The notes under the pieces: generated by a model
The model's database searches: none
Told to the model about the DNA's origin: nothing
The model's input: the letters and a program-made list of their open reading frames with translations, nothing else
NCBI GenBank assembly: GCA_903940425.1
Contig: CAJAKX010000136.1
Coordinates: forward strand, 1 to 32,489
Length of the DNA: 32,489 nucleotides
DNA from: an uncultured Opitutia bacterium
Lineage (GTDB): Bacteria > Verrucomicrobiota > Verrucomicrobiia > Opitutales > Opitutaceae
Direction: 5' to 3'
Part shown: positions 6,510 to 32,489 of the stretch, in pieces
How the letters are laid out: each line of letters starts with the position of its first letter
How positions within the stretch are numbered: position 1 is the first letter of the stretch
Program-made: the position numbers and the translations under genes

Positions 6510-6550
6510 ACCCGACCAGGTGCCCGCCGTCGTTCCGGAGACCACTAAAT

Positions 6551-7945: not shown

Positions 7946-7993
7946 GGACGGCTCGCGTTGGCGGACGGAGAATTACTCGCTGACCCCGCATGG

Positions 7994-8204
7994 TTATTTG
8001 TCCGCCGCCTCGATTACCACCACCCAGTCCTGACCCTGCGGTCTTTTCTCCAAGGTGAGGCTTTCGGGATTGGCGAAGCGCACCGCCGGTGTTTTGTTTT
8101 TTCCAATGGGGAAACCCTCCCCGTCAGAGCCACCAACTCCGGCTTCGACCAATTGCTTGGCTTGCCTCCGTTCTTTCGCTTGAATTTGCTCAATCCGCCT
8201 ATCT
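7994..8204 (-). pseudogene. Possible 3' remnant of an unidentified gene
   Basis: The 259-bp gap between the esterase and GH43 genes contains a minus-strand frame that reads like the tail of a protein. It has a charged helical stretch (RRIEQIQAKERRQAKQLVEA), then NKTPAVRFANPESLTLEKRP and QDWVVVIEAADK, ending in TAA. Third codon positions are mostly G/C, as in the surrounding genes. Upstream the frame runs antisense into the start of the GH43 gene, where it stops looking like protein, and no start codon suits a small gene. The best reading is a 3' fragment left after rearrangement. Chance coding in GC-rich DNA is the alternative. I recognise no family. Confidence 0.3.
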
Positions 8205-9206
8205 ATGAAGCTTCTCCAATATTCCCTGTGGTTGCTCCTCGGCAGCTCACTCGCCCCGGCCGTCGCGTCGGGCGGGAATCCGCTGGTCACGAACATCTTC
8301 ACCGCTGATCCCACCGGCCGGGTCTTTGGCGGGCGGCTTTATGTTTACACCTCGCACGACGAGCCGGCCGCCACCTACTGGGACATGGTGGACTGGCGCC
8401 TGCTCTCGACCACCGACCTGGCCACGTGGAAGGACCATGGCTCGATATTTCGCGTGAAGGACTTCGCGTGGGCGACGCGGTGGGCCTGGGCACCGGATTG
8501 CGTCCAGGCGAACGGCAGGTATTACCTCTTCCTGCCGGTCGATCGCACCAAGATCGGCGTCGCGGTTGGCGACAGTCCGGAAGGGCCGTTCAAGGATGCC
8601 ATTGGAAAGCCGCTGATCGACAACGCCGCGCTGCCGGATGCCGGACGGGAACCGATTGATCCCGCGGTGCTCTTGGATGACGACGGCCAGGCCTACCTGT
8701 ATTTCGGCTGCCGCAACCTCAGGATTGTGAAGCTGGACGCCTCGCTGACCAAACTTGCAGGCGCGCTGCAACCCGGCGTGGTGCTCGATGCGCAAGGGCG
8801 ACCGATCCCCGTTGCGGCGCCCGATACGCAACCCGTCCTGCCCGAGGGCTATGGCGAGGCGCCTTTCATTTTCAAACGAGCCGGGAAGTACTACCTCGTT
8901 TACTCGAACGGCTGGGCACCGGAATCCACGCAGGTCTATGCCATGGCCGATCGCCCGATGGGCCCGTTCACCTATGCCGGAAAAGTGATGGAGCACGCCG
9001 CTTCGGTCACGCAACACGGCTCCGTTGTCCAGTTCAAGGACAAGTGGTATGTCCTTTATCACACGAGCGAACTCTCGAATGGGAACGCCTTCCGCCGCTC
9101 CGTGTGCATCGATGAGTTGAGCTTCGACGCGAACGGCCGGATCAACACCGTCACCCCGACGAAGAACGGCCCGGTGCCCGCGGCCGCCGGCCTTGGTTCC
9201 CAGTAG
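8205..9206 (+). CDS. GH43 family glycoside hydrolase, secreted
   Basis: 333 residues with a Sec signal peptide (MKLLQYSLWLLLGSSLAPAV, cut near ASG). This is a single five-bladed beta-propeller of GH43 type. NIFTADPTGRVFGGRLYVYT holds Asp35, the likely general base. EPIDPAVLLDDDGQAYLYFG holds Asp152, the pKa modulator. EAPFIFKRAGKYYLVYS holds Glu218, the likely general acid. There is no additional C-terminal domain, so it is a minimal GH43. Family members act mostly on alpha-L-arabinofuranosides, beta-xylosides or beta-1,3-galactans by inversion; with GH51 and an RG-acetylesterase nearby, arabinan or arabinogalactan side chains are plausible. Its start abuts the antisense remnant described at 7994-8204. 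Confidence 0.9.
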   Translation: MKLLQYSLWLLLGSSLAPAVASGGNPLVTNIFTADPTGRVFGGRLYVYTSHDEPAATYWDMVDWRLLSTTDLATWKDHGSIFRVKDFAWATRWAWAPDCVQANGRYYLFLPVDRTKIGVAVGDSPEGPFKDAIGKPLIDNAALPDAGREPIDPAVLLDDDGQAYLYFGCRNLRIVKLDASLTKLAGALQPGVVLDAQGRPIPVAAPDTQPVLPEGYGEAPFIFKRAGKYYLVYSNGWAPESTQVYAMADRPMGPFTYAGKVMEHAASVTQHGSVVQFKDKWYVLYHTSELSNGNAFRRSVCIDELSFDANGRINTVTPTKNGPVPAAAGLGSQ

Positions 9207-9382
9207 CCGATGGTGCGAGAAGGCAGACGGATTTTCGCGCCCATCCCATGACGACAACCGCACCTGAACGCTGCGCAGGAGTGACAGGAGTGGCGGCGGT
9301 GTTTCCATGAGTTTGCGCCGCGGTTGGTTCAGAATTGCTACGAAGCACACCCCGCACCCAGCTTGTCCCGCCGGCAGAAGCC

Positions 9383-9643
9383 GTGAATCGTTTTTTTGTT
9401 TATCTGCTGGTTTTGCTCGCGATCAGTCCTGCGCTCAGCGCCGCCGAACGCGATTCGCGCCCGTGGGGCGAATGGCAAACCTGGGGCGCCCAGGACGACG
9501 GCACCTACCGAAATCCGGTGCTCCCCGCGGACCGCATCGGCATCTACTGCTTCAACTCCCGCAGTGACGCCGGATACGTCGACGTTGACCATCTCCGCTA
9601 CACCTATGCCGGCCCCCAGGATTCAATCCGCAAGTCAGATTAA
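9383..9643 (+). pseudogene. GH43-like gene reduced by an internal deletion
   Basis: An 86-codon frame from a GTG at 9383 encodes a signal peptide (MNRFFVYLLVLLAISPALSA) followed by WGEWQTWGAQDDGTYRNPVL. This is the usual opening of a long GH43, with the blade-1 NPVLPAD segment. At about residue 50 it switches directly to IGIYCFNSRSDAGYVDVDHL and RYTY, which resembles the end of the C-terminal beta-sandwich found in multi-domain GH43 proteins. The propeller core and both remaining catalytic acids are absent, although the frame stays open across the join. This fits an in-frame internal deletion removing most of a GH43 gene. A collapsed genome assembly would look the same. It ends 12 bp before the next gene. 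The short product might still be exported but cannot be catalytic. Confidence 0.6.
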
Positions 9644-9655
9644 CCCGTCCCACGT

Positions 9656-11455
9656 ATGAAATCAGTCATGTCCATCCCGCGCCATTGCCTCGCACTTTTC
9701 TTGTTTGTTGCCGCCTCCGCCTTGGCCGCGGACGGGCCGCGGCAGCTCGTCTTCGACGGCGTGCTCTGCGAACACCGGCTGGCGCTGAAGGACCTCGACC
9801 CGGCGATGCCGTCGGACTGGACGGGCTACACGCATCTGGTGATCGAAATGAAAACCTCGACGCCGCAACGCTTCGCCCTCTGGGCCTATACAGCCGACGG
9901 CCCGCGGCGCATCGAGCTCCAACCCTTCGGGCAGAACGTGTGGCTGCGCGCGTCGATCTCCTTGCAATACTTCGCCGGCATGGACAAATCGGGCACGGAT
10001 CTCGCTTCGACGAACAACCGGCGGACCAACTCCTTCTGGATGTCCGTGTGGGGGCCGTTTGGCGGGCTGCAGTCAGTCGAGGCGCTGGGGTTCGCGATGC
10101 AGTATCCGATCAACCGGCCGACGATCGAGCTGCGCTCGATCCACCTCGCGAAGCAGGACGAGGGATCGGAATTCCTCGGGGGGCAGCCGGTCGTGGACGA
10201 GTTCGGCCAGTGGGCGCACGTCGATTACCCGCGCAAGATCCACAGCCGCGAGCAGCTCGAAAAGGAGCTGGCCGACGAGGAGAAAACCTTCGGCAGCGGG
10301 GCTGACTTCGGCTATTGCGAGCTGGGCGGCTTCAGGGATGCGCTGCCGGCCGGCAGCGCGAAGGCGACGGGCTTCTTCCGCGTCGAGCAGATCGATGGCA
10401 TCTGGTGGTTCGTCGATCCGCACGGGCATCTGTTTCTCTCGACCAGCTCCAACGGCCTTGGCGGCTTCGGGGGTGGGGGGCCGGGCCGGCCGGCGGGCGG
10501 GATGACACCAGCGGCGGCCACCGACCGCCTGATCCGCCGCCTCGAGTCCTGGGGCCTGAACACCGGCGGCCCGGGTCGCCCCAATATTGTTTTCCTCCGC
10601 TGGCCGCGGGCGCCGGAGACCACCTTCCTCGGCGTGCCCGACGTCTACGCCGAGGCGTTCGCGCGCGGCATCGATGAAGCGGCGGGCACCCAGTGCGCCG
10701 CGCACAAGGATGACCCGCTCGTGATCGGCTATTTCATCGGCAACGAACCGCCGTGGGGCGGCCGCGAGGGCGAGGTGGTCGATCTGATTCTTGTCGGGCC
10801 CGACACCGCGACGAAGGCCCGGCTCAAGGAGTTCCTCGCGCCGGGTGACACGCCGAAACAGCGCCGGCAGTTCGTGGTGGCCGCGTTTGAGAAATACCTC
10901 GATCTGGTCTGCCGCGCGGTCCGCAAATACGATCCGAATCACCTCAACCTCGGCATCCGTTTCGGCGGCAAGCCGGCCGACGAGGTCCTGCGCCTGGCGC
11001 GCGTCTTCGATGTCTGCAGCATCAACGTCTATGAATATGAGCCCACCAAGCAGCTCGAGCGGTCGTACCGTCTGTCGGGCCGGCCGATCTTGATCGGCGA
11101 GTTTCATATCGGCGTGCCGGCCAACGGCCTCGGCGCGGGCCTCGTGCAGGCGAAGGATCAATCCGAGCGCGGCATCGGCTATCGCTATTTCGTCGAGCAG
11201 GCGGTGTCGCTGCCCTACTGCCTCGGCGCGCACTGGTTCACTTGGCGCGACGAGCCCGTGCTCGGCCGCATGGACGGCGAGAATTACAACATCGGCTTCG
11301 TCGACGCCACCGACCGGCCGTATCCGGAACTGGTCGAGGCGGCCAAAGCGACGAACAAACATCTGCGGGAGGTCCACTCCGGCCGGACACTTCCCTTCCA
11401 CCAGAGACCCATGGCCTCCGAGGCCGGCAGTCCCTCCTCGCCATGGGATCCTTGA
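9656..11455 (+). CDS. Secreted clan GH-A-like glycoside hydrolase, family unassigned
   Basis: 599 residues with a signal peptide (hydrophobic CLALFLFVAASALAA). Residues about 25-190 form a beta-rich accessory domain (WTGYTHLVIEMKTSTPQRFA and ALWAYTADG are visible). From about 240 a TIM-barrel-like region begins with GIWWFVDPHGHLFLSTSSNG. It contains VIGYFIGNEPPWGG (Glu364, likely acid/base after an Asn) and RPILIGEFHIG (Glu482, likely nucleophile), the two strand-end glutamates of clan GH-A. A late WFTWRDEPVLGR segment is also typical. The layout is reminiscent of GH50/GH86-like agarase relatives, but I cannot assign a family. A Gly-rich stretch (GGFGGGGPGRPAGG, near 280) is unusual inside a catalytic domain. 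Substrate is unknown; context suggests a beta-linked plant or algal polysaccharide. Confidence 0.75.
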   Translation: MKSVMSIPRHCLALFLFVAASALAADGPRQLVFDGVLCEHRLALKDLDPAMPSDWTGYTHLVIEMKTSTPQRFALWAYTADGPRRIELQPFGQNVWLRASISLQYFAGMDKSGTDLASTNNRRTNSFWMSVWGPFGGLQSVEALGFAMQYPINRPTIELRSIHLAKQDEGSEFLGGQPVVDEFGQWAHVDYPRKIHSREQLEKELADEEKTFGSGADFGYCELGGFRDALPAGSAKATGFFRVEQIDGIWWFVDPHGHLFLSTSSNGLGGFGGGGPGRPAGGMTPAAATDRLIRRLESWGLNTGGPGRPNIVFLRWPRAPETTFLGVPDVYAEAFARGIDEAAGTQCAAHKDDPLVIGYFIGNEPPWGGREGEVVDLILVGPDTATKARLKEFLAPGDTPKQRRQFVVAAFEKYLDLVCRAVRKYDPNHLNLGIRFGGKPADEVLRLARVFDVCSINVYEYEPTKQLERSYRLSGRPILIGEFHIGVPANGLGAGLVQAKDQSERGIGYRYFVEQAVSLPYCLGAHWFTWRDEPVLGRMDGENYNIGFVDATDRPYPELVEAAKATNKHLREVHSGRTLPFHQRPMASEAGSPSSPWDP

Positions 11456-11514
11456 GCAACCCCGGCCGCGTCGTCCGTGTTGGTGCGCGGTCATTCTATC
11501 CGCCAGCCAAATTC

Positions 11515-13038
11515 ATGAAATCCACCCTGTGCCTCGTCCTCACCTGGGCCGCCCTGGTTCTCGGCGCCGGCGTGCTGCCCGGCGCCGCGAAGCTCCCGCC
11601 GCATTTCTCCGACCACATGGTTCTCCAGCGGGGGATGAAAGTCCCGATCTGGGGCACGGCGGCTGCCGGCGAGTCCGTGTCGGTTGAATTCGCGGGCCAG
11701 AAGCAGACGGCCACGGCGGGTGCGGACGGCAAATGGCGCGTCGACCTCGCACCCATGGCGGCATCCGCGGAAAGCCGGACCATGGTGGTCACCGGCGGTG
11801 ACGGCGGACCGGCGGCAAGGTTCGACGACGTGCTCGTGGGTGAGGTCTGGCTGTGCTCGGGCCAGTCGAACATGGATTTCACCGTCGCGAAGACGCCCAA
11901 GTACTACTTTGCCGGTGTGAACAACGAAGCCCAGGAGGTGGCGGCGGCGAATGACCCGCTGATCCGCATGTTCACCGGCGAGTGGAGCCGGACTTATGAA
12001 CCGCAAGCCACCGTCGCGGGCACATGGCGCGTCTGCAGCCCCGAGACGGTGCGGGAATTCTCGGCCATCGGCTACTTCTTTGCCCGCGACCTGCAGAAGG
12101 AGATCAATGTCCCGATTGGCATCATCACCGGGACGTACGGCGCGAGCACCGCGCAGGCGTGGATCCGGCGCGAGACCATCGCGGCCAGTCCGCAACTCAA
12201 GCCCGTGCTCGACGAGTTCGACGCGAAGGTGAAGGCCTACACTCCGCCCACTGAGGAGGAATTGCAGCCGTGGCACGACGCCGTCGACAAAGCCAGGGCG
12301 GAAGGCAAGCGCCCGCCGCGCCGGCCGCGGCCTGATCCGGTGCAGGATCAGCACAACCCCACCGTGCTGTTCAATGGCATGATCGCGCCGATCATCCCCT
12401 GCGCGATCCGTGGCGTGCTTTGGTACCAGGGCGAGTCAATCACCCCGCCGAAGGAGCTGTTCCCGCTCTGGAACGAGACGCTCATTGCCGACTGGCGGAA
12501 GCTCTGGGGTTACGAGTTTCCGTTCTTCTTCGTGCAACTCGCCGCGCTCAAGGCCAACAGCAACACGCCGGCCGTGCGCGAGGAGCAGGCCCGGGCGCTG
12601 GCGCTGCCGAACACCGGCATGGCGGTCACCATCGACATCGGCGACCCCGACAACGTCCACCCGAAGAACAAGCAGGACGTCAGCGCCCGGCTCGTGCGCA
12701 TCGCGCTGGCCAAGGTCTACGGCCGCGACCTCGAATACTCCGGCCCGGTGTACACATCGATGCAGGTCGAAGGCGGCGCGATCCGCCTGAAGTTCTCGCA
12801 TATCGCCGACGGACTCGTCGCGCACGGCGGCGAGTTGAAGACATTCGTCATCGCCGGCAGTGATCTGAAGTTTGTCCCTGCCACCGCCCGGATTGAGGGC
12901 GACACCGTGGTGGTCTCCAGCCCGGAGGTTGCCTCGCCCGTGGCGGTGCGCTATGCGTGGGAAAACTACCCGGAAGGCTGCAATCTCTACAACGCCGCCG
13001 GCCTCCCCGCCGCGCCATTCCGCACCGCCCGCCCGTAG
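11515..13038 (+). CDS. Sialate O-acetylesterase family (SASA) esterase, secreted
   Basis: 507 residues from the ATG at 11515, where a signal peptide begins (MKSTLCLVLTWAALVLGAGV). An N-terminal beta domain (KLPPHFSDHMVLQRGMKVPI) precedes the SGNH-like core. VWLCSGQSNMDF holds the nucleophile Ser118. GVLWYQGES is a conserved strand. DPDNVHPKNKQD holds Asp379 and His382, completing the triad. A C-terminal beta domain follows. Enzymes of this family remove O-acetyl groups from sialic acid or, very often in plant-polysaccharide gene clusters, from xylan, pectin or other acetylated glycans. The gene is 59 bp after the clan GH-A gene and 41 bp before GH51, so it is probably part of the same transcript. 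Confidence 0.88.
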   Translation: MKSTLCLVLTWAALVLGAGVLPGAAKLPPHFSDHMVLQRGMKVPIWGTAAAGESVSVEFAGQKQTATAGADGKWRVDLAPMAASAESRTMVVTGGDGGPAARFDDVLVGEVWLCSGQSNMDFTVAKTPKYYFAGVNNEAQEVAAANDPLIRMFTGEWSRTYEPQATVAGTWRVCSPETVREFSAIGYFFARDLQKEINVPIGIITGTYGASTAQAWIRRETIAASPQLKPVLDEFDAKVKAYTPPTEEELQPWHDAVDKARAEGKRPPRRPRPDPVQDQHNPTVLFNGMIAPIIPCAIRGVLWYQGESITPPKELFPLWNETLIADWRKLWGYEFPFFFVQLAALKANSNTPAVREEQARALALPNTGMAVTIDIGDPDNVHPKNKQDVSARLVRIALAKVYGRDLEYSGPVYTSMQVEGGAIRLKFSHIADGLVAHGGELKTFVIAGSDLKFVPATARIEGDTVVVSSPEVASPVAVRYAWENYPEGCNLYNAAGLPAAPFRTARP

Positions 13039-13079
13039 GACCACTCCCGCCAAGCCGCGCCCACTCCGATCTTTTCCCC

Positions 13080-15116
13080 ATGACCCCGATCAGATTCGCC
13101 ACCCTCGCCGGCGTCACCGCCCTCCTGATTACCCGCCCGGTCGGGTCGGCCGAGCCGGCGGTGACCCTCACCATCGACGTCGCTCATCCCGGTCACGCCG
13201 TCAGCTCGGTGCTGCACGGCGTGTTCTTCGAGGCCATCAACTACGGCGCGGACGGTGGTCTGTACGCAGAGCTCGTGCAGAACCGCTCGTTCGAGCACGC
13301 CGAGCACCTGTACGCCTGGGGCACGGTCAATCGCGGCGGCGACGGCGACGTGACGATCGAGACGGCCGGGCCGCTCAACGCGAAGAACCCGCACTACGCA
13401 CGCCTCACGGTGCGCGATCCGGGCAGGGGCTTTGGCCTCGGCAATTATGGCTTTGGCGGCATCGCCGTGAAATCGGGTGAGAACTACCTGTTTTCAGTTC
13501 GGGCCCGCACCGACGCCGCATACCAAGGTGCGCTCATCGCGGTGCTGGAGGACGAATCGGGCCGCCCGCTCGGCGAGTGCCGGCTGGCGGGCCTCGGATC
13601 CGCGTGGGCGCAGCTCGACGGCACGATCAAGTGCGGCGCCACCGCCACGTCCGCCCGCCTCGTCGTGCTGGCGACCGCCGCCGGCCGCGTCGACCTGGAC
13701 GTCGTCTCGCTCTTTCCCGAACACACGTTCAAGAACCGCCGCAACGGTGTGCGCGCCGACCTGGCGCAGATGCTCGCCGACCTGCACCCGGCGTTCCTGC
13801 GCTTTCCCGGCGGCTGCATTGTCGAGGGCCGGGACCTGCCGAACCGCTACCAGTGGAAGGACACCATCGGCGACATTGCCGGGCGTTCGGAAAACTGGAA
13901 CCGCTGGCAGGACGCCGTGCGCGGCACCGCGCCGCAGTATTACCAGACCTATGGCCTGGGATTCTTCGAGTTCTTCCAGCTCTGCGAAGACCTCGGTGCC
14001 GAGCCGCTGCCGATCCTCAACTGCGGCATGGCCTGCCAGTACCAGAGCAAACAGCTTGTGCCGCTCGACCAGCTCGATCCCTACGTGCAGGACGCGCTCG
14101 ACCTGATCGAGTTCGCCAACGGCCCGGCTGCGAGCGGGTGGGGCGCGCAGCGCGCGGCGATGGGCCATCCGGAGCCGTTCCACCTGAAATATCTTGGCGT
14201 CGGCAATGAGCAGTGGGGCGAGGACTATTTCGCGCGCTACAAAATCTTCCGGGCCGCAATCAAGGCGAAGCATCCGGATATGCAGCTCGTCACACCGGCC
14301 GGGCCGGGCGTGGACGACGGCTTCTGGAAGCTCGCGTGGGACAAGTTCCGGAGCGGCACGCCCGCCGACATCGTCGACGAGCATTACTACCGCCCGCCGC
14401 AGTGGTTTCTCGAAAACGCCACGCGTTACGACGCGCAGGACCGCGCCGGCCCGAAGGTGTTCGCGGGAGAATTCGCCGCGCACGACCGCGACCGCCGCAA
14501 CACTTTGCGCGCCGCGCTGGCCGAGGCGGCGTTCATGACCGGCCTGGTGCGCAACAGCGACCTCGTGGCCATGTCGTCCTACGCGCCGCTCTTCGCCAAG
14601 GCCGGCGCGTGGCAGTGGGCGCCGGACCTCATCTGGTTCGACAACACGCGCGTCTACGGCACGCCGTCATATTATGTGCAGTCGCTCTTCAGCAACAACC
14701 GGCCCGATCGCGTGGTGCCGGTGACGGTGGCGGGTCCAGCCGTCACGCTGCCGCCCCTGCCGGCGCGCGAGGTCGCCACCTACGGCGCGCCACCGCTGAC
14801 GCCCTACAAGCCTGTTTCAATCCCTGCGCTGTTCGCCGCCGGCGGCCTTCGAGGAAGCGCGGGCGAGATTGTCGTCATCGTCGTCAATCCCTATGCCGAG
14901 GCGCGGGCGGCGATCGATCTGCACGGCACGAAGAGCATCGCCCCCGGCGCCAGAGCTGTCGTGCTGACTTCGGCCAGCCCGGACGATGAAAACTCTTTTG
15001 AGGCGCCGACCAAGGTCGCCCCGCGCGAGGAGACGGTGTCCATTTCCGGCCCGTCTTTCGAGCACACCTTTCCGGCGAATTCGCTCACCATCCTGCGGCT
15101 CACGGCGGCGGAGTAA
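13080..15116 (+). CDS. GH51 alpha-L-arabinofuranosidase, secreted
   Basis: 678 residues from the ATG at 13080. The open frame extends upstream into the esterase gene, but the signal peptide (MTPIRFATLAGVTALLITRP, then VGSAE) fixes the start. The mature protein opens with HAVSSVLHGVFFEAINYGAD, typical of GH51. A carbohydrate-binding-like insertion spans about 95-210. The TIM barrel contains FLRFPGGCIVEGRDLPNRYQ, YLGVGNEQWGEDYF with acid/base Glu377, and KVFAGEFAAHD with nucleophile Glu464. The C-terminal beta domain ends at NSLTILRLTAAE. The enzyme should release arabinofuranose from arabinan, arabinoxylan or arabinogalactan. Export is common for this longer type with an N-terminal insertion, unlike the short cytoplasmic GH51 enzymes. 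Confidence 0.92.
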   Translation: MTPIRFATLAGVTALLITRPVGSAEPAVTLTIDVAHPGHAVSSVLHGVFFEAINYGADGGLYAELVQNRSFEHAEHLYAWGTVNRGGDGDVTIETAGPLNAKNPHYARLTVRDPGRGFGLGNYGFGGIAVKSGENYLFSVRARTDAAYQGALIAVLEDESGRPLGECRLAGLGSAWAQLDGTIKCGATATSARLVVLATAAGRVDLDVVSLFPEHTFKNRRNGVRADLAQMLADLHPAFLRFPGGCIVEGRDLPNRYQWKDTIGDIAGRSENWNRWQDAVRGTAPQYYQTYGLGFFEFFQLCEDLGAEPLPILNCGMACQYQSKQLVPLDQLDPYVQDALDLIEFANGPAASGWGAQRAAMGHPEPFHLKYLGVGNEQWGEDYFARYKIFRAAIKAKHPDMQLVTPAGPGVDDGFWKLAWDKFRSGTPADIVDEHYYRPPQWFLENATRYDAQDRAGPKVFAGEFAAHDRDRRNTLRAALAEAAFMTGLVRNSDLVAMSSYAPLFAKAGAWQWAPDLIWFDNTRVYGTPSYYVQSLFSNNRPDRVVPVTVAGPAVTLPPLPAREVATYGAPPLTPYKPVSIPALFAAGGLRGSAGEIVVIVVNPYAEARAAIDLHGTKSIAPGARAVVLTSASPDDENSFEAPTKVAPREETVSISGPSFEHTFPANSLTILRLTAAE

Positions 15117-23505: not shown

Positions 23506-24582
23506 ATGGCCACCCGGACTCCGCCCCTGTTGAAAGTCGCCATGATCGGCTGCGGCAAGCCCCGCGGCACCGAGGGTGCCACCGGCTTCGGCATGGCCCA
23601 CCGCCACATGGCCGGCTACACCCGGTCCGGCCGCTGCACCCTGGCCGCCGTGGCCGACCTCAGCCGCGAAAACGCCGAGGCGTTCGTGGCGCAGCACCAT
23701 CCCGCCGCGGCGATCTTCTCCGACTATCGCAAGATGATGCGGGCGGTCCGGCCCGACGTGGTGAGCGTGTGCCTCTGGCCCCACCTGCACGCCCGGGTGG
23801 TGGGCGGCGTGGCGCCGTTCCAGCCGCGGGTGATCCTGTGCGAGAAGCCCATGGACATCCACTGGGACGCCTGTCTGCGGATGCACCGGACGTGCCGGAA
23901 GCACGGCGTCCTCCTTGCGATCAACCACCAGCGCCGGTTCAACCTGCCGCTGGCGAAGGCCAAGGCGTTGCTCGACGGCGGCGCCATCGGCGGCCTGCGA
24001 CGCCTGGACGGCGCATGGCACAACCTCTCCGACGCGGGCACGCACGTGCTCGATATGATGTTTTTCTTCAACGGCGACACGCCCGCCGAATGGGTGCTGG
24101 GGCAGATCGACATGCGCGGCGCTACCAAGGTGTTCGGCGCGATCAACGCCGGCCACGGCATCTCCGAATTTCGCTTTCAGAACGGCGTGCGCGCCGTCTA
24201 CCACTTCGGCCACCAGCATGCCGAGCTCGGCTGCCTGCTGCGGCTCACCGGCGAGGGCGGCATGATCGAGATTCTCTTCGACGCGCCCTGGCTGCGCCTC
24301 CGGCGCCACGGCCAGGCGGAATGGGAGGTCGTCGACACCGGCGAATCCATCCACGACGACCAGGCCATCTACCGCGGCATCGCCGACATGCTGGCGTGCC
24401 TGGACGCCGGCACGGTGCCGCAGCTTGCGAGCGAGCGGGCCCTGCGCGCAACCGAGATCATCTTCGCCACCCACGAATCGGCGCGCCGCCGCGGCCGGGT
24501 GGACCTGCCCCTGCGCGCCGGCAAATGCGCCATGCTGGCGATGCTCGCCTCGGGCGAACTCAAGGCGGAATTCCCCGACTGA
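23506..24582 (+). CDS. Gfo/Idh/MocA family oxidoreductase
   Basis: 358 residues, no signal peptide, so probably cytoplasmic. The N-terminal Rossmann fold opens with LKVAMIGCGKPRGTEGATG; the usual GxGxxG dinucleotide loop carries an insertion of about nine residues before GFGMAHRHMAGY. The next strand is TLAAVADLSRENAEAF. ILCEKPMDIHWD contains the family's EKP motif (113-115), and LLAINHQRRFNLP follows. The C-terminal alpha/beta domain includes GGLRRLDGAWHNLSDAGTHV. Members oxidise, reduce or epimerise sugars or inositols with NAD(P). Its stop is 9 bp before the isomerase-like gene, a clear two-gene operon, so the two should act on related sugar intermediates. Confidence 0.9.
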   Translation: MATRTPPLLKVAMIGCGKPRGTEGATGFGMAHRHMAGYTRSGRCTLAAVADLSRENAEAFVAQHHPAAAIFSDYRKMMRAVRPDVVSVCLWPHLHARVVGGVAPFQPRVILCEKPMDIHWDACLRMHRTCRKHGVLLAINHQRRFNLPLAKAKALLDGGAIGGLRRLDGAWHNLSDAGTHVLDMMFFFNGDTPAEWVLGQIDMRGATKVFGAINAGHGISEFRFQNGVRAVYHFGHQHAELGCLLRLTGEGGMIEILFDAPWLRLRRHGQAEWEVVDTGESIHDDQAIYRGIADMLACLDAGTVPQLASERALRATEIIFATHESARRRGRVDLPLRAGKCAMLAMLASGELKAEFPD

Positions 24583-24591
24583 ACTCCCATC

Positions 24592-25464
24592 ATGTTTGCC
24601 TCCTTTAATCCGGGCCACGTCGGCATCACGGTCTCCCTGCGCGAGGGGCTGGCGCTGGCCGGGCGCCATGGTTTCGGCGGCTACGACGCCCAGCTCGCCA
24701 CCCTGCGTGACGAGGTGGCCGCCCAGGGGGCGGCCGCGGTGCGCGATCAGTTCCTCGATCACGGGCTGCGCATCGGCGCCTGGAACCTCCCGTTCATGCC
24801 GTACCGCGTGACCGAGGCGGAGTGGCGCGACTGGCTCGGCAAGCTGCCTCCGCTGCTGGCTGGCGCCCGCGCGCTCGGCGCGCTGCGCGCCGGCATGTGG
24901 ATCCTGCCCGGCAGCGACGAGCGGGGTTTCGACGACAACTTCGCCTTTCACATCGCCCGCTTTCAACCCGTCGCCCGGCTCCTCGCCGACCACGGCGTCC
25001 GCCTCGGCCTCGAGTTCATCGGACCGGAGACGGCGCTGCGGAAGTTCAGACACCCGTTCATCCGCTCCGTCGCGGCCATGCTGCAGCTCGCGCGCGCGAT
25101 CGGTCCCAACTGCGGCCTGCTGCTCGACGCCTGGCACTGGCATTGTGCCGGCGGCACGCGCGAGGATCTGCGGGGGCTGACGCGCGACCTGCTCGTGCAC
25201 GTGCATGTCGACGACGCGCCGGCGGGCGTCCTCCGCGCCGAGCTCATCGACAACCGCCGGAAACTCCCCTGCACGACGGGGGTGATCGACATCGACGGCT
25301 TCATGCAGGCGCTGGCCGACGCCGGCTACGACGGCCCGGTGACCGCGGAGCCCTTTGATCCCGAAGTCAGCGCGCTGCCGGCGGAGGAATCGGCCGCCCG
25401 CACCGCCCAGACCACGCGCGCCGCCGTGGCCCGCGCCGTCCGTTCCGCGGAGCGCGCCCGGTAG
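24592..25464 (+). CDS. Sugar phosphate isomerase/epimerase-type TIM barrel
   Basis: 290 residues, cytoplasmic. The fold is that of the xylose isomerase-like / AP endonuclease 2 superfamily. Candidate divalent-metal ligands are in order: RLGLEFIGPE (Glu141), LLLDAWHWH (Asp179 and His182), LVHVHVDDAP (His203 or His205) and VTAEPFDPEV (Glu253). Related proteins isomerise or epimerise free or phosphorylated sugars and inositols, and they are often encoded next to Gfo/Idh/MocA oxidoreductases, as here with a 9-bp gap. Substrate is unknown. It converges with the GH26 gene, 50 bp apart. Confidence 0.88.
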   Translation: MFASFNPGHVGITVSLREGLALAGRHGFGGYDAQLATLRDEVAAQGAAAVRDQFLDHGLRIGAWNLPFMPYRVTEAEWRDWLGKLPPLLAGARALGALRAGMWILPGSDERGFDDNFAFHIARFQPVARLLADHGVRLGLEFIGPETALRKFRHPFIRSVAAMLQLARAIGPNCGLLLDAWHWHCAGGTREDLRGLTRDLLVHVHVDDAPAGVLRAELIDNRRKLPCTTGVIDIDGFMQALADAGYDGPVTAEPFDPEVSALPAEESAARTAQTTRAAVARAVRSAERAR

Positions 25465-25514: not shown

Positions 25515-26558
25515 TCAGGGGGCGTTTCCCGCCAGGCCCGGCGGCAGGTCCTCGCGATTCACCAGCCAGGGATGGTTGAAAAGTTCCGGCGCGCCATGGT
25601 TGCTGGCCGGACTCCATTTGGCATTCCAGCTCATGAAGAACGTCGTGCGCGGGAAATTGGCCATGACGCCTGCCAGGAAACGCCGGTAGTCGTAATCGCC
25701 GGGCGGATTGCTCGGGCCGTGCGGGCCGTATTCGCCAAAACCGAACGGCTTCGCCAGCCGCGCCAGCGCGGCGTAGCCTTTGACGTTCTCGGTATCGACC
25801 AGGTCGGTATAGGCGTCGATCGCGACCACATCCACGCAGTCGTCGCCGGGATAATAATCGGCGGTGTGATCGCCGTGGTTGGGGCTGTAAACCCACAGGA
25901 GATTGTCGAGGCCCTTCGTCGTGGTGAAGTAGGCGAACATGTGCCGCCAGACGCGGACGAACGCCGCCGGCTCCTTCGCGCCCCACCAAAACCACCCGCC
26001 GTTCATTTCATGGAACGGCCGCCACAGCACGACCACGCCCGCCGCCTTGAGCTCCTGCAGGCCCGCCACCAATTCATCGAGCTCCCGCATCCATCGCTCA
26101 TGCGTCGCGGTGCCGGGCGCCAGCAGTTCGGCGAGATCGACGCCCTGGTCGCGCAGCCCACCCCCGCTGGGATTGGCTGGATTGCCCAGATGGGCGCTGA
26201 CCGTCACGAGTCCGCCCTCACGCCAGTACGCGATCGCAACGCGGTTCGGCGTCCCGGTAGTGAGTGAGCTCTGGTTGGCGGCCGGGTTAAACTCCGCGTA
26301 GTCCACGCCGATCAGTGCCAACCAGTGCCCCGTCTGACGGTGGATTTCCTTCGGCAACGCCAGGTCCGCCCGGCTGCCGAAATCAGTGAACTGGCCGGAC
26401 AACATGCGCTTGTCCGTCCGCGGTTCCAGACTCGCGAGATAGTCGAAAACGGCCCGGGTCCGGGCGCTGGCCTGCGGATTGGCCGGCGCGCCGGCCGCGC
26501 CGATCAGCGGCGCGGACATGAGCGCAAGGACGGGCAGCAGCCAGCGGAGTGCCTTCAT
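25515..26558 (-). CDS. GH26 beta-mannanase, secreted
   Basis: 347 residues from the ATG with first base at 26558, giving signal peptide MKALRWLLPVLALMSAPLIG (cut near GAAGA). A longer open frame upstream to 26648 would bury the signal and is unlikely; an ATG two codons earlier is possible. GH26 signatures: RMLSGQFTDFGS, VVVLWRPFHEMNGGWFWWG with acid/base Glu184, the NLLWVYSPN strand, YYPGDDCVDVVAIDAY, and KPFGFGEYGPHG with nucleophile Glu276. FFMSWNAKW is a late aromatic strand. Most bacterial GH26 enzymes are endo-beta-1,4-mannanases or mannobiohydrolases; a few act on beta-1,3-xylan or mixed-linkage glucan. The AGE-family epimerase gene further upstream supports mannan. Confidence 0.9.
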   Translation of the reverse strand: MKALRWLLPVLALMSAPLIGAAGAPANPQASARTRAVFDYLASLEPRTDKRMLSGQFTDFGSRADLALPKEIHRQTGHWLALIGVDYAEFNPAANQSSLTTGTPNRVAIAYWREGGLVTVSAHLGNPANPSGGGLRDQGVDLAELLAPGTATHERWMRELDELVAGLQELKAAGVVVLWRPFHEMNGGWFWWGAKEPAAFVRVWRHMFAYFTTTKGLDNLLWVYSPNHGDHTADYYPGDDCVDVVAIDAYTDLVDTENVKGYAALARLAKPFGFGEYGPHGPSNPPGDYDYRRFLAGVMANFPRTTFFMSWNAKWSPASNHGAPELFNHPWLVNREDLPPGLAGNAP

Positions 26559-26686
26559 GGTCATTGTGGGCGTGATAATCCAGACCTGCTGGCGTAAGGT
26601 CGCAAACTTTTCCCTCGACTGGTTTGCCTTGTCCCCCGGGGCGGTCATTCAGCCGGAATGCCTCCGGGTGTCCGGCGCGCCGGGGA

Positions 26687-26718: not shown

Positions 26719-29700
26719 TCAATCGCGCTGCGCCAGCACCTGCTTGATCGTTCCGATGAGTTGATCGATCTCGTACGGTTTCGCCACCATCGCCTGGAAA
26801 CCGAAGCTGCGGAAATCGGCCAGCACCGCGTCGCTGCTGTAGCCGCTCGACACGATGGCAGGCACGCGGGAATCCATGCGGCGGATGACCTCCATCGTTT
26901 CCCGCCCCCCCATTCCGCCCGGAATGGTGAGGTCGAGGATGACCAGATCGAAGGGCCGGCCGTCGCGCCGGGCGGCGCTGAACTCGCGCACGGCCGCGGC
27001 GCCCTCGGCGACCACCGTGACCTCCAGCCCCATGCGCTGCAGCAAAGTTGCGCCCAGCCACCGGATGCTTTCCTCGTCATCCATCAGCAGCACCCGGGCG
27101 GTCCGCACCGGGGCCGCAGCCGCGACGGGTGCCGGGGCCGGCGGGGGCGGCTCCGGCGGTGCGGTGTCGGCGGCCGGCAGCCACAAGGTGAACGTTGTGC
27201 CTTGCCCGGGCGTGGAATCGACTTCGATGTGCCCATGGTGTTTCTTGACGATCGAATAGACGGTGGCGAGTCCGAGTCCGCCGCCGGTTTTCTTGGTCGA
27301 GAAATACGGATCGAAAATCCGCGGCAGGATGTCGGGGCGGATGCCCTCGCCGGAATCGGCGATCACCAGCCTGACGTAGCGGCCCGCCGCAAGCCCGGCC
27401 TTCACGCCCGGGGCGATTTCGTCGTTGCTCAGCGACACCCGGATCACCCCGCCATGGGGCATCGCCTGCACGGAATTGAGCACGATATTCTGGACCACCT
27501 GGGTGATCTGATCCTTGTCCACGTTGGCGTTCCACAAACCGGGGACCACGTTGTAGTCGCAGCGCGCGCTGGTCCCATGGAGGACCAACTCGGCTGCCGC
27601 CCGGACGATGTCGGGCAGTGGCACCGTGGTGCGCAGCGGATCACCGCCTTTGGCGAAGGTCAGCAGCTGTTGGGTGAGGGCGGCGGCCCGGATGGCGCCC
27701 CGCTCGATCTCGCGCAGGTAGTCACCGGCGGCGGCCTTCACCTTGTCGTTGAGCATCGCCAGCCCGAGATTTCCCATGATGATCGTCAGCAGATTATTGA
27801 AATCGTGGGCGATGCCGCCGGCGAGCACCCCGAGCGATTCGAGCCGCGCGGCGCGCTGTACTTCGGCCTCGAGGCGCGCCTGATGCTCCAGCTGCCGGCG
27901 GATCTGCCCGGTCTGCTGGCGCACCCGGCGTCGCAGTGCCGTGATCCAGGCCAGGCTGAGCACGATGCAGCCGCCGAGGATGGCAAGCGCGATGAGCGCC
28001 CGCTCCGCCGTCAAAAAACGGGCCTTCCGGATGACCACCACGTCCAGCGGGGACCGCAGCTGCAATTGGAAGCTCCGCAATTGCCGGGAATCGTCGAAGA
28101 TGCTCTTGTAAACGCCCGTGAGTTCCAAGCCCGCGCTCAGCGCGAGCCCGGTCAGGGCCGGAGTGCCGGGCGACGGATCGAGCACGGCTTCGAACAGCGT
28201 GTTACCGGATTGCAGCGTCAGGCGCGTGCGCTCCGGCCGGTATAACGCATCGATCAACGTTCCGCGCATCCGCACCAGCCGCGCATCATATGTCGTCGAC
28301 AGGCGCGAAGGATCGTCGAGCAGCAGGGGCGCGGGCGGAGTCCCGGTGCCGCGTTTGCGGTACACGGCTTCGCGCAGCAGGGTGCGGGCGCCTTCGCGCC
28401 CGAGGATGCCCACCGCCTCGATCGAGTCTCCGGGGGCCAGCGGCGCCGTTTCGTGGCTGAGCACGAGCAGGCCCGAGTCGCCCTCCTGCACGTACACGAA
28501 GCGGCCGGGTACGGCGTGCGACACGATCCCGGAGATCCGGACCCGAAGCATATCCTGCGTCGTGCTGAGCTGCTCCAGGGCTTTGATGGGCCGAAGCGGC
28601 AGGCCGTAGATGTCAGCCGGAGCGCCTTCTTCGATCGAGATACCGTGCAGGAACGGCACCCGGAGGGTAAGCCCGGTGATGTGTCCAGTTTCATCCACGG
28701 CCGTTTCGCACACGCCGTGGACGTTGATCAAGGAGCCGGGCGTGGTCTCGAAGGTGACCGGCGACTGCAGATCCGCGACAAACTCCCCGTCCGGTGAAGT
28801 CACGTTGATCAAACGTCGCTGACCCTGCGACACGGTGTTCTGGTAGAAACCGCGCATTTCGACCCACTGGCCATCTTCCTTGCCGGTGATCGCCTGCTCG
28901 TAGGTGATGCGCTTGGCCGGCGGCGTGCTCATCGCCCCGAGATCCTTGTAATGCTTCAGATCCACCGCCGGTGCATTGCCGCCGTTGTAGGTCACGCCTT
29001 CCACCGCGAGATACTGGTTCAACCGAGGCGCATCCATCATGCCCCGCGGGTAGCGCACGCGGATGCCTCCGCTGAAGTCCTGCAGGAAGAAAAAGTCAGA
29101 ATCGGGCACCGTCCAGGTGACCATACCGGAAAAGGCCACCGGATAGCCGTGTGCGGCATCCTCCGTTGTCAACTGGCGGATCTGCTCGATTGTCTCGATG
29201 AGAGCTGCCCCTTTCGGCGGGGATTGGTTCGATGCAGCGGGCAAGGTAACCCGGCGGTACACGGCGGACTGGAGAATCCATTGGGCGCCGTCAATTGCCA
29301 GGCGACCCACCGCCTCGACCTCGGTGCCAAAAGGGAATCGCTGTTGTTGGACGGAACGGACCATGACCTGCCCCGTGGTGTCGCGAATGACCATGAACGA
29401 GCCGGGTTCGTGGGCCTGAACCACGCCGCGCACCCGGATCATCTGGCCGGTCGGAGCCTGATGGATTTCGTTGATTCGCGTCAGTGGAATCTGGAAATCC
29501 ACATAATCGTCGAGCGATCCCAGGACAGTCAGATCACTCTGCCGGCCGACATACAGCTCGATGGTGGACTCGGTCCCCGATGTGTCAAAACGGGCGGAAT
29601 ACAAAGCGGTGAAGCGGACGAACCGGCCCTGCCAATTCGGCACGGAGTGAGGATCGTCCGGTTTGACCCAGCCGATGACGGGGCGATCTTCGATCACCAG

Positions 29701-30216
29701 CGCAAGGCGGACGTGGTCATCATCCATCAATTGTTGTCCGTCGACGTAGGCGTCGGCGGTCACGATCCGGCCATCCAGCGCGTTGGAATCCCGAATCCTG
29801 CTCTTGGTGGGCAGTGGTTCAATCGGGGCGAATTCCTTCAGCACCGTCACCGTGACCGTGTTGGCGTCCAGCCCTCTAACCGGGAGTAGGCTTCCTTCAA
29901 TCCGTACGTATTGGCCGGTGCGCAGGACTGGTGGGGATGACGACAATTTCATGTACGTGCCAACGCCGTCCTTTTCCAGCCACGAATTTCTCCAGCGCGG
30001 ATCGTAGAAACTCACGCGACCTTCGATTCGAAGCGGATGCACGATCGACCGCATTTCGGTCGATAGCGGCCAGATCTGGCTCGGATCGGTGATGGTTTCG
30101 GCCGGCGGGGGGGCTGCGGGGGCTTCGGCTGCGCCGACGCGCGCCGGAGCAAGCGCTAACCAGACCGTCACGCAGGCCGCGAGGCCGCGTCGGCCGAAGC
30201 GGTTACCGACGTGCAT
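26719..30216 (-). CDS. Hybrid sensor histidine kinase/response regulator with long beta-rich sensor
   Basis: 1165 residues from the ATG with first base at 30216, supported by GGAG 7 nt upstream and a signal sequence (hydrophobic GLAACVTVWLALAPARVGAA). Residues about 60-730 are extracytoplasmic and contain about seven consecutive beta-rich units of 65-80 residues resembling OB folds (for example RVRGVVQAHEPGSFMVIRDT and RVRISGIVSHAVPGRFVYVQ). A transmembrane helix (740-761) and coiled coil lead to SLGVLAGGIAHDFNNLL with phosphoacceptor His804. The ATPase has NIVLNSVQAMPHGG, DSGEGI, FDPYFSTK and GGGLGLATVYSIV. A Pro/Ala linker precedes a receiver domain: MDDEE, LVILDLTIPGG with Asp1095, and AKPYE. 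There is no DNA-binding domain, so output needs a partner. It sits between GH5 and GH26 on the same strand, suggesting but not proving a role in mannan sensing. Confidence 0.88.
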   Translation of the reverse strand: MHVGNRFGRRGLAACVTVWLALAPARVGAAEAPAAPPPAETITDPSQIWPLSTEMRSIVHPLRIEGRVSFYDPRWRNSWLEKDGVGTYMKLSSSPPVLRTGQYVRIEGSLLPVRGLDANTVTVTVLKEFAPIEPLPTKSRIRDSNALDGRIVTADAYVDGQQLMDDDHVRLALVIEDRPVIGWVKPDDPHSVPNWQGRFVRFTALYSARFDTSGTESTIELYVGRQSDLTVLGSLDDYVDFQIPLTRINEIHQAPTGQMIRVRGVVQAHEPGSFMVIRDTTGQVMVRSVQQQRFPFGTEVEAVGRLAIDGAQWILQSAVYRRVTLPAASNQSPPKGAALIETIEQIRQLTTEDAAHGYPVAFSGMVTWTVPDSDFFFLQDFSGGIRVRYPRGMMDAPRLNQYLAVEGVTYNGGNAPAVDLKHYKDLGAMSTPPAKRITYEQAITGKEDGQWVEMRGFYQNTVSQGQRRLINVTSPDGEFVADLQSPVTFETTPGSLINVHGVCETAVDETGHITGLTLRVPFLHGISIEEGAPADIYGLPLRPIKALEQLSTTQDMLRVRISGIVSHAVPGRFVYVQEGDSGLLVLSHETAPLAPGDSIEAVGILGREGARTLLREAVYRKRGTGTPPAPLLLDDPSRLSTTYDARLVRMRGTLIDALYRPERTRLTLQSGNTLFEAVLDPSPGTPALTGLALSAGLELTGVYKSIFDDSRQLRSFQLQLRSPLDVVVIRKARFLTAERALIALAILGGCIVLSLAWITALRRRVRQQTGQIRRQLEHQARLEAEVQRAARLESLGVLAGGIAHDFNNLLTIIMGNLGLAMLNDKVKAAAGDYLREIERGAIRAAALTQQLLTFAKGGDPLRTTVPLPDIVRAAAELVLHGTSARCDYNVVPGLWNANVDKDQITQVVQNIVLNSVQAMPHGGVIRVSLSNDEIAPGVKAGLAAGRYVRLVIADSGEGIRPDILPRIFDPYFSTKKTGGGLGLATVYSIVKKHHGHIEVDSTPGQGTTFTLWLPAADTAPPEPPPPAPAPVAAAAPVRTARVLLMDDEESIRWLGATLLQRMGLEVTVVAEGAAAVREFSAARRDGRPFDLVILDLTIPGGMGGRETMEVIRRMDSRVPAIVSSGYSSDAVLADFRSFGFQAMVAKPYEIDQLIGTIKQVLAQRD

Positions 30217-30386: not shown

Positions 30387-31496
30387 TCAATGCGCAATGA
30401 GCAGTTCGAGCATCCTCCGGTCCAGCTTATGTCCGCGGAAATCCTCGTAGACGACGTCGCTTCGCCCGCTGTCGACGAGGCCGAAGGTGCCGCGAAGGTT
30501 CCACATGGCCCAGCCCCAGCCGGCTTCCTTCCAAAGGGCCAGCAGGTCGTTCATCCACGCCAGCGCGACGTCGTGGGGCGTCCGGTTGAAACAGCCCCAT
30601 TCACCCACGTGGATCGGCACGCCGAGCGCAACGAGCGGCTGCCATTTGGCGATGAGTTCCTGGCGGAGTTTTTCGCGGTCCCACGTCTGCCCCTTGGCAT
30701 CGACGAGCGGCCAGGTCGGAATGGCGAACGACTCGAATTCATTCTTCGGCACCCAGGTGGCCGTGTAGTGGCTGACCGCTTTGGGCAGGTAGCCGCGCGT
30801 GCTTTGGACAAGGCCAAGATCCACGATCCCCGGCACCGGGGTCTGACCGAGATCGGCGCCGTCCGCCACGATGAGGCGGTCCGGGCTTTTTTCGCGAATC
30901 GCCGCGACCAGCGCGTGGACGATTTCCACATAGCGCGCCTGGTCGTTCATCCACGGCGGCTCGTTGAGCAGGTCGAAGCTGAGCCGGGCGCTGGGGATGG
31001 CTTGATAGCGCTCGGCGAAAAACCGCCACTGATGCGTCGCCGCCGCCAGCGCCTTCTCCATCGACTCCCGCGGGCTGTCGAACAGCAGGAACGGCTCCAG
31101 CTCGCGACCGTTGACGCAGTAGCCCGGAATCCGGTGGAGGCACAGATTGACGTGAATCCCGTGCTGCCGGCCGTACTCAATGGCCTGGTCGACCGGCGCG
31201 AGCGCCCGCTCATCGATGCTCATCCAATCCTTGCGGTTCGTCCACGCCCAGTAGGACAGCGGGAGGCGGGCAAAGTCGAAGCCCCATTCAGCCATCCACT
31301 CAAAGTCGGATTCGCTCAGAGCCACGCCGCGCTGGTTGGGCGCCAGCACCGGGAGATTGAAGCCGCGCCGGCGCGGGATGCGCGGCTGACCGCTCGACTC
31401 TGGTGTCGCTGCGGCTGCGGCCATGGCACGAGAAGACAGCAAGAGGCCGGCCGCCGCCGTGGCGGAAGAACCGATAAAATCACGTCGATTCATCAT
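30387..31496 (-). CDS. GH5 family glycoside hydrolase with Tat signal
   Basis: 369 residues. The N-terminus MMNRRDFIGSSATAAAGLLL followed by SSRAMAAAAA is a textbook twin-arginine signal (RRDFIG). The TIM barrel opens with RRRGFNLPVL and has WGFDFARLPLSYWAWTNRKD. SFDLLNEPPWMN supplies acid/base Glu179 and IHVGEWGCFNRT supplies nucleophile Glu299. GWGWAMWNLRGTFGLVDSGR is the usual late aromatic strand. GH5 covers endoglucanases, mannanases and many others; mannan or glucomannan is inferred from the GH26 and epimerase genes. It follows the epimerase gene by 72 bp. The 170 bp downstream to the kinase hold the kinase leader region, which is visibly less GC-rich than the coding DNA. Confidence 0.88.
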   Translation of the reverse strand: MMNRRDFIGSSATAAAGLLLSSRAMAAAAATPESSGQPRIPRRRGFNLPVLAPNQRGVALSESDFEWMAEWGFDFARLPLSYWAWTNRKDWMSIDERALAPVDQAIEYGRQHGIHVNLCLHRIPGYCVNGRELEPFLLFDSPRESMEKALAAATHQWRFFAERYQAIPSARLSFDLLNEPPWMNDQARYVEIVHALVAAIREKSPDRLIVADGADLGQTPVPGIVDLGLVQSTRGYLPKAVSHYTATWVPKNEFESFAIPTWPLVDAKGQTWDREKLRQELIAKWQPLVALGVPIHVGEWGCFNRTPHDVALAWMNDLLALWKEAGWGWAMWNLRGTFGLVDSGRSDVVYEDFRGHKLDRRMLELLIAH

Positions 31497-31568: not shown

Positions 31569-32489
31569 TCATTGCCTTGGAGTATCGGAAACATGGGCCG
31601 GCGCCGCTGCCCTCAGGATGTCGGCAAGGCGGCTGACCAGCTCCATGCAGGCTCTCCCATCGTGGTAGGGGCATTTCCAGAGGCTGACCTTGTCACTCGA
31701 AAGAACGGTGCCGTCCCGCGCCAGGAGGTTGTACCACTCGCCGTGCTTCTGATCGACCACATGGGTTGCGATGAAATCCCAGCTGTGCATGGATGCCTGG
31801 AGAAAGCGGGGATCACCGGACAATTGGTAGGCGTTCAAAAAGCCGGTCGCCGCCTCCGCTTGTTGCCACCATTCTTTGTGCGTGTTCGTCAGGCCCGTGG
31901 GCCCGGCTTCCGACAGCAGCCCGCCGTCAGCGTCCACGCCTTCGGCCAGCGTGGCCCGGGCGACTTCCACGGCGACGGTGCGGGTCCGCGCGACCAGATC
32001 GTGATCGCCCAGCACCTCGGCGGTCTCGAGGAGCAGCCAGCTGAATTCGATGTCGTGGCCGAACGAGATGCCGTCGGAGCGCGGCGTCCAATCGTCGGCG
32101 AGGAACAGTCGCAGGTGGTGGTTGGCGGGATCGAGGACGCGCGTGAGCATCAGGTCCACGAGGTCTTGCAGGTTGCCGCGCAGCTCCGGGTCGGGCCAGA
32201 CCCGCAGCAGGTTGGCGTAGGCCTCCATCACATGCAGATGGGTGTTCTGGGATTTCGGGCCCGGCGCGCTGAGGCGGCCCCATTGCGGGTCGGACCGCTT
32301 CCAGTCCCGGGTGAACTCCTCGAAATAGCCGCGGTGCGCCCGGTCGTGGCTGTGGGACTCGACCGCGCGATACAGCGCAATCGCGCGATCCAGTGGCGCG
32401 CGGTCGCCCGTGGCGCGGTGATATTCAGCCAGCGCGTAGATGCCGAAGGCCTGGCCGTAGATTCTTTTCTTGGTGTCGAGCGGCTTGCC
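31569..32489 (-). CDS. AGE family epimerase (cellobiose/mannobiose 2-epimerase-like), 5' end outside window
   Basis: 306 residues are visible; the frame continues to the right edge, so the N-terminal portion is missing. The (alpha/alpha)6-barrel signatures of the N-acylglucosamine/cellobiose 2-epimerase family are clear: KRIYGQAFGIYALAEYHRAT, SQNTHLHVMEAYANL, ISFGHDIEFSWLLLE, KEWWQQAEAATGFLNAY and SLWKCPYHDGRACMEL. The histidines in THLH, GHDIE and PYHDGR match the family's catalytic and substrate-binding histidines. Cellobiose 2-epimerases convert the reducing-end glucose of beta-1,4 disaccharides to mannose and back; in mannan clusters they turn mannobiose into mannosyl-glucose for a GH130 phosphorylase. 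GH5 and GH26 downstream make that role likely. No GH130 gene is in the window. Confidence 0.87.
   Translation of the reverse strand, partial: GKPLDTKKRIYGQAFGIYALAEYHRATGDRAPLDRAIALYRAVESHSHDRAHRGYFEEFTRDWKRSDPQWGRLSAPGPKSQNTHLHVMEAYANLLRVWPDPELRGNLQDLVDLMLTRVLDPANHHLRLFLADDWTPRSDGISFGHDIEFSWLLLETAEVLGDHDLVARTRTVAVEVARATLAEGVDADGGLLSEAGPTGLTNTHKEWWQQAEAATGFLNAYQLSGDPRFLQASMHSWDFIATHVVDQKHGEWYNLLARDGTVLSSDKVSLWKCPYHDGRACMELVSRLADILRAAAPAHVSDTPRQ

Follow-up and report, generated by a model that had tools for sequence, protein, structure and literature searches.

What does a membrane-bound histidine kinase sense when the whole of its extracytoplasmic part matches no classical sensor domain? The question is raised by P0001, a hybrid histidine kinase encoded in a 32,489-nucleotide stretch of DNA from an uncultured Opitutia bacterium of the Verrucomicrobiota (contig CAJAKX010000136.1; the whole stretch is called the window here). 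A sequence-only reading had proposed about seven tandem OB-fold-like sensor units at 28020-30110, which correspond to residues 55-751 of P0001 on the minus strand. Sequence comparisons and structural models show P0001 as a single-pass membrane hybrid histidine kinase whose periplasmic part is predicted to consist wholly of seven OB-fold barrels, in the class order A-B-A-A-B-A-B. In our best reading, P0001 would be a periplasmic sensor of modular build that recognises oligosaccharides from plants or algae, the ligand being suggested by its gene neighbourhood.

Architecture of the sensor and the kinase

AlphaFold2 modelling with eight sensors gave seven runs of five strands in the periplasmic part (mean predicted local distance difference test score (pLDDT) 82), with first strands at residues 79, 170, 278, 378, 470, 577, and 666; at a predicted TM-score (pTM) of 0.44, the orientation from unit to unit is not confidently predicted for the whole sensor. 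The unit starts first read from the sequence (60, 147, 258, 358, 449, 556, and 646) were apparently counted from a second in-frame ATG at 30216, which is residue 20. Shifted by 19, they become 79, 166, 277, 377, 468, 575, and 665, all within 4 residues of the modelled first strands, and because of this agreement we place exactly seven units where they had been proposed.

The internal repeats are real, as both profiles and hidden Markov models (HMMs) score above their nulls, but the single pattern described at first is actually two. An hhalign self-comparison of the entire alignment gave no repeat match, and the units were then compared one by one, each unit profile being built from 8 orthologues and set against a null of 60 column shuffles. 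U1, U3, U4, and U6 form class A, and U2, U5, and U7 form class B: scores reached 64.5 for U3-U6, 37.5 for U2-U7, 35.5 for U5-U7, 30.6 for U4-U6, and 26.0 for U1-U4, against a best null of 15.5, and 12 of the 21 unit pairs, nearly all cross-class, scored 17 or less. A single uniform repeat is ruled out by this split. The classes are related, as the pooled A and pooled B profiles match with 94% probability. Class HMMs built with L009-L035 and their duplicates excluded (94 A units from 46 loci, 88 B units from 45 loci) recovered every one of the seven P0001 units, with scores of 17.4-69.1 bits. Among 301 shuffled or reversed sequences, the A HMM gave any match in 177 and the B HMM in 183, with a top score of 4.2 bits.

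Structural and profile matches support an OB fold for the predicted units. A model of the U6-U7 pair (24 rows; pLDDT 91.8, pTM 0.86) has five-stranded barrels and matches OB structures with Z up to 12.8. In VIA-align, U7 matched the anticodon-binding OB domain of AspRS/AsnRS (Z 13.5, root-mean-square deviation (rmsd) 2.6 Å over 96 residues, 5xix_B; in the pair model, Z 12.8 and 2.2 Å over 92 residues against 5zg8), U6 matched an AsnRS (Z 11.3, 2.1 Å, 87 residues), and U5 matched Ten1-type and CST OB domains (Z 11.4-11.6); these matches are mainly to U7, with some to U5 and U6, so that the absence of other families among them is uninformative. The structure searches resolved U5-U7 best, and the OB assignment of U1-U4 comes from strand pattern and homology. 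With sequence profiles alone, class A found archaeal RPA14 first in the PDB (E 5.1e-4), and class B found the OB regions of PolD and AspRS weakly (E 0.1-0.3). In Pfam, the pre-membrane region of P0001 has sub-threshold matches to OB families only (BOF E 0.0096, Rep_fac-A_3 E 0.055). A handful of individual units (56 of class A and 58 of class B scanned) match OB families at E<=0.01, and one unit of the relative L038 exceeds the PF01336 cut-off (31.3 vs 27 bits), the sole such unit in the 21 whole proteins scanned. The OB-like character noticed at the outset is borne out by the pair model, by the class A profile, and by this unit. Structure prediction and repeat comparison turned up neither a known single sensor fold nor a loss of the internal repeat.

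HisKA, HATPase_c, and receiver domains all lie above their Pfam cut-offs, and P0001 has the intact catalytic motifs of a hybrid sensor histidine kinase: His823, Asp1114, and the N, G1, and G2 boxes. The best 25 of 128 NCBIfam models all align from residue 762 onward. The receiver stops at residue 1176 of 1184, and the Pfam scan gave no helix-turn-helix (HTH) match C-terminal to it. By hydropathy, an N-terminal hydrophobic stretch begins at residue 30. P0001 is presumably dimeric, with a long periplasmic arm.

Table 1. Features of P0001 and of its neighbours in the window. Units U1-U7 were placed from AlphaFold2 strands, unit profile comparison, and class HMMs.
Feature	Position	Strand	P0001 residues	Basis or remark
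Hybrid sensor histidine kinase gene P0001	26719..30273	-	1184 aa	ATG at 30273; full-length relatives L009-L015
Probable signal peptide	30127..30216	-	about 20-49	Hydrophobic core, AxA-like site; read from sequence and hydropathy
Unit 1 (U1), class A OB fold	29809..30057	-	73-155	
Unit 2 (U2), class B OB fold	29509..29784	-	164-255	
Unit 3 (U3), class A OB fold	29233..29460	-	272-347	
Unit 4 (U4), class A OB fold	28918..29160	-	372-452	
Unit 5 (U5), class B OB fold	28621..28884	-	464-551	
Unit 6 (U6), class A OB fold	28333..28563	-	571-647	
Unit 7 (U7), class B OB fold	28021..28299	-	659-751	Membrane-proximal
Transmembrane helix	27928..28020	-	about 752-782	Hydropathy
HisKA domain	27646..27825	-	817-876	Phospho-acceptor His823 (AHDFNN); Pfam PF00512 E 8.5e-7
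HATPase_c domain	27169..27519	-	919-1035	N, G1, G2 boxes; Pfam PF02518 E 3.1e-26
C-terminal receiver	26746..27093	-	1061-1176	Phospho-acceptor Asp1114; Pfam PF00072 E 2.8e-15
GH26 glycoside hydrolase (beta-mannanase family)	25515..26648	-		Directly downstream of kinase; Pfam PF02156 E 5.3e-62
GH5 glycoside hydrolase	30387..31496	-		Directly upstream of kinase; Pfam PF00150 E 1.7e-21
GlcNAc-2-epimerase/AGE-type epimerase	31569..32489	-		Cut by window end; Pfam PF07221 E 6.3e-28

Distribution of the A-B module

A survey of other genomes and neighbouring genes, as the sequence-only reading had suggested, found that the module recurs in numerous bacteria of soil and water, in some clades beside glycoside hydrolases. 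Full-length relatives of P0001 (49-90% identity) occur in seven metagenome-assembled genomes (MAGs) named Opitutia, Opitutaceae, or Verrucomicrobia. In the window's class, 85 of 286 genomes contain a match to a seven-unit profile (E<=1e-5). At E<=1e-10, matches to a four-unit profile turned up in 14 of 199 genomes from the phylum that includes the Acidobacteriaceae genome behind L022, and in none of 200 from the Pseudomonadota, to which the Sulfuricella genome of L019 belongs. These counts are lower bounds because just four candidates per genome were scored in the class survey and nine in the phylum surveys. As many as nine matched stretches were found within one genome.

The order of units is itself variable. 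Among 67 non-duplicate open reading frames (ORFs) with units, drawn from 90 loci after removal of 10 duplicates and several of them cut by locus ends, 25 read ABAB, 24 ABAABAB, 10 AB, and 8 otherwise; the class HMM E-values in this survey fall largely on training members, and the HMMs described above serve as the leave-out test. The output domains comprise hybrid HisKA kinases, HisKA_3 kinases with or without PAS, and GGDEF cyclases. Read from their sequences, these proteins show that the A-B module is an input domain that can be moved between proteins: outside P0001 it is joined to other histidine kinases and also to diguanylate cyclases. GGDEF domains are fused to A-B modules in L062, L072, L073, L076, and L085, some of which add PAS and a partial EAL, or GAF; judged by this domain composition, the same sensor feeds cyclic di-GMP signalling. 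The longest array seen has nine units, BAABAABAB, and possibly ten, its start being cut by the locus (L057:223-4212). An acidobacterial HisKA_3 kinase carries a 3keto-disac_hyd domain ahead of a single A-B pair (L070:757-3093), a point in favour of the oligosaccharide reading. In the Acidobacteriaceae MAG of L022, the sensor and GGDEF are split by frames and masked stretches (L022:3771-5626), which may reflect a pseudogene or an assembly fault.

Glycan genes, the putative ligand, and its rivals

P0001 lies between genes for GH26 and GH5 glycoside hydrolases, with an AGE-type epimerase gene farther upstream (Table 1). GH26, GH5, and AGE-type epimerases jointly suggest beta-mannan use. A near relative (L009, kinase 90% identical) has the same gene set and order, and L014 (59% identical) has the GH5, epimerase, Gfo/Idh, and AP_endonuc_2 genes in a rearranged order. 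The last two, a Gfo/Idh/MocA oxidoreductase and an AP_endonuc_2 sugar isomerase-like protein, form a pair at 23506-25464 of the window and are also found near the kinase in L009 and L014. On the plus strand, window positions 1-15116 hold a second polysaccharide block, with a TPR/DUF5107 protein, GH31, an alpha-L-fucosidase, a GDSL esterase, GH43, and an alpha-L-arabinofuranosidase, which hints at hemicellulose side-chain use. For several of the ORFs chosen in the window's left half, Pfam gave no match, and these may have been taken from the wrong strand.

A second link to glycan degradation was found in the wider family, by comparing 40 sensor loci with 40 control HisKA kinase loci of the same genomes, followed by a replicate of 20 and 20. 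In Pfam scans of the two nearest genes per side, the first 75 sensor neighbours included 5 with GH16 and 3 with GH3, and the 25 families listed per scan contained neither of them for the second 76 sensor neighbours or for 160 control neighbours (one neighbour protein of >1600 aa was left out, and L114, without a called sensor gene, is absent from these scans, which thus cover 39 of 40 loci, but kept in the HMM survey and the tree). With GH16 and GH3 HMMs scanned within about 7 kb, sensor loci matched in 7 of 40 and 3 of 20 cases, and control loci in none of 40 and none of 20 (one-sided Fisher p 0.006 in set 1, the set whose proteins supplied the HMMs). When 68 sensors were placed in a tree, all but one of the ten loci with GH16 or GH3 grouped in a single clade of 14 rows (SH-aLRT 100), made up of four-unit kinases from five family-level groups, so that 9 of its 14 members lie near GH16 or GH3, often with the hydrolase gene immediately adjoining the kinase. 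The GH label changes 6 times on the tree, against a shuffled mean of 9.5, and only 2 of 500 shuffles were as low. P0001 falls outside this clade, among the seven-unit kinases. The PF00722 and PF00933 genome tables list no GH16 in the window's genome, and across eight genomes of the same family none lay within 5 kb of 30 sensors; the link to GH16 is a property of the four-unit clade. Around the same 30 sensors, GH3 or GH16 occurred 3 times within 5 kb vs 0.45 expected, which is too weak to serve as stand-alone evidence.

The earlier suggestion that the chain binds a glycan thus finds indirect support, from the gene neighbourhoods of two clades, and the ligand remains putative. We propose that oligosaccharides freed from the polysaccharides of plants or algae (in this case probably from beta-mannan) would bind along the barrels, much as beta-propellers serve the hybrid kinases with which Bacteroides responds to glycans, and would move the membrane-proximal pair U6-U7. 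The signal may then travel through the single membrane helix and its coiled coil to the dimerization and histidine phosphotransfer (DHp) dimer, where the kinase/phosphatase balance would shift at His823. Phosphate would pass from His823 to Asp1114, to a separate histidine phosphotransfer (Hpt) protein, and to a response regulator acting on the GH26 and GH5 genes. A separate Hpt is proposed as the next carrier because no output domain follows the receiver; the window's genome has a free-standing Hpt gene (L171) and one Hpt inside a large hybrid. The ligand is the least certain step of this mechanism. As an explanation of the whole, a seven-OB-fold hybrid kinase that senses plant or algal oligosaccharides in this way has, in our estimate, a probability a little under 0.6.

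Several points weigh against it. In structure searches, the chain matches nucleic-acid binders best (HIN-200, RPA, and telomere proteins), and the weak Pfam matches are to OB families named for nucleic acids. Five of the seven full-length relatives (L010-L013 and L015) have no mannan neighbourhood, and a conserved mannan operon is thereby ruled out as the usual setting of the gene. The GH16/GH3 replicate taken alone, with HMMs derived from set 1, gives 3 of 20 vs 0 of 20 (one-sided p 0.115), several of the surveyed loci have a genome in common with another, and the controls are HisKA kinases, whereas the scanned four-unit relatives are mostly HisKA_3. Oligosaccharide binding and phosphotransfer to an Hpt partner are themselves both putative.

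It could be that the nearby glycan genes are incidental in bacteria rich in glycoside hydrolases and that the kinase senses something unrelated. The five relatives without mannan genes are consistent with this, as is the small excess in the window's family. However, GH16 and GH3 are absent from all 60 control kinase loci, whose genomes are those of the sensor loci or overlap with them, and at several loci the hydrolase gene directly adjoins the kinase, within a supported clade that spans five family-level groups. We regard this reading as rather unlikely.

An arm that docks periplasmic or outer-membrane partner proteins, which is the main mechanistic rival, would need no small ligand, and the same is true of a plain spacer or of a device that senses the state of the envelope; for other kinases, small periplasmic proteins play such a part. 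Unit number varies freely, from AB to nine units, as in a spacer, and the conserved residues of the A and B consensus are chiefly structural. Excerpts of two papers describe periplasmic OB-fold BOF proteins as acting in stress responses (PMC6370654, PMC5636140). However, U5 is clearly the best conserved of the seven units (29 of 88 columns invariant in 8 orthologues), which a plain spacer would not need, and the clade-wise GH16/GH3 link suggests specificity, so that this explanation seems unlikely to us.

The main structural rival is nucleic acid. In Foldseek searches of the PDB, the whole sensor matched p204 HIN first (E 4e-14), with RPA, Teb1, LEF-3, RADX, BRCA2, and telomere proteins, and the U6-U7 pair matched HIN domains (p204/IFI16) and Teb1 best. 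The TM-scores of the whole sensor against these matches are 0.10-0.17, and the pair superposes on HIN domains at an rmsd of about 7-9 Å (TMq 0.36-0.47); the barrels therefore match, but their arrangement appears to differ. A periplasmic DNA or RNA sensor akin to RPA or to the HIN-200 DNA sensors, although in keeping with these matches, with the RPA14 match of the class A profile, and with the Pfam families, is quite improbable, since a common fold proves no function and the informative loci have glycoside hydrolases as neighbours.

Known systems and biological significance

Bacteroides hybrid two-component systems (HTCS) are glycan sensors with Reg_prop beta-propellers. P0001 resembles them in combining a large periplasmic sensor, a kinase, and a receiver in one chain beside polysaccharide-degrading genes. 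Unlike them, it has tandem OB folds in place of propellers, with neither Reg_prop nor Y_Y_Y among its seven Pfam matches at E<=1, and no AraC-type HTH at its C-terminus in Pfam. The kinase core and receiver (residues about 790-1182) are similar to those of CckA/VirA-like hybrids (NCBIfam HisKinCckABruc E 5.4e-67, PRK13837.1 E 9.9e-69), but P0001 scores far under both cut-offs (226 vs 1000 bits and 232 vs 647 bits), and its sensor is entirely different, with no PAS found. As first noted, the Pfam scan reveals no classical sensor domain (PAS, Cache, or Reg_prop).

Strings of OB barrels are also found in RPA, HIN-200, Teb1, LEF-3, and RADX, but these are eukaryotic or viral nucleic-acid binders with about 10% identity and an apparently different inter-barrel geometry, and there was no kinase among the tandem OB-fold structures matched by Foldseek. 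The AspRS/AsnRS anticodon-binding domain, the closest single-barrel fold for U7, differs in protein context and function. BOF proteins place an OB fold in the periplasm, as a single small barrel that is not known to be fused to a kinase. The BOF family (PF04076; YgiW, SipA) matches residues 272-329 in U3, but P0001 does not reach its cut-off (16.4 vs 25.8 bits). No Pfam model covers the A-B module in scans of whole proteins and of single units, and P0001 is a histidine kinase with a sensor class unmodelled in Pfam and NCBIfam. In the non-subscription full-text literature, no description of tandem OB folds as a kinase sensor was found among the matches listed, by title and start of abstract. 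Within the sources searched, these results uphold the suggestion of an undescribed sensor class. The Vibrio protein DbfQ (PMC12714742) was dropped as a parallel, as no OB fold is mentioned in the excerpt of its report.

From a biological perspective, it is possible, and we say so tentatively, that A-B modules make up an undescribed class of extracytoplasmic sensor, expanded within Verrucomicrobia and Acidobacteria, that reads polysaccharide fragments; how many A-B pairs there are, and of which kind, would then tune the glycan (beta-glucan, beta-mannan, or others) and the chain length recognised. If so, the module would do in these groups what the propeller does in the Bacteroides HTCS, with tandem OB folds serving as glycan receptors on kinases and on diguanylate cyclases. 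To our knowledge, little has been established about how Verrucomicrobia and Acidobacteria perceive their substrates, although both are major degraders of polysaccharides in soil, peat, and sea. A sensor module that is present in 85 of the 286 sampled genomes of the class and has no Pfam model would render many orphan kinases and cyclases interpretable, and the clade tied to GH16 and GH3 yields a directly testable ligand prediction.

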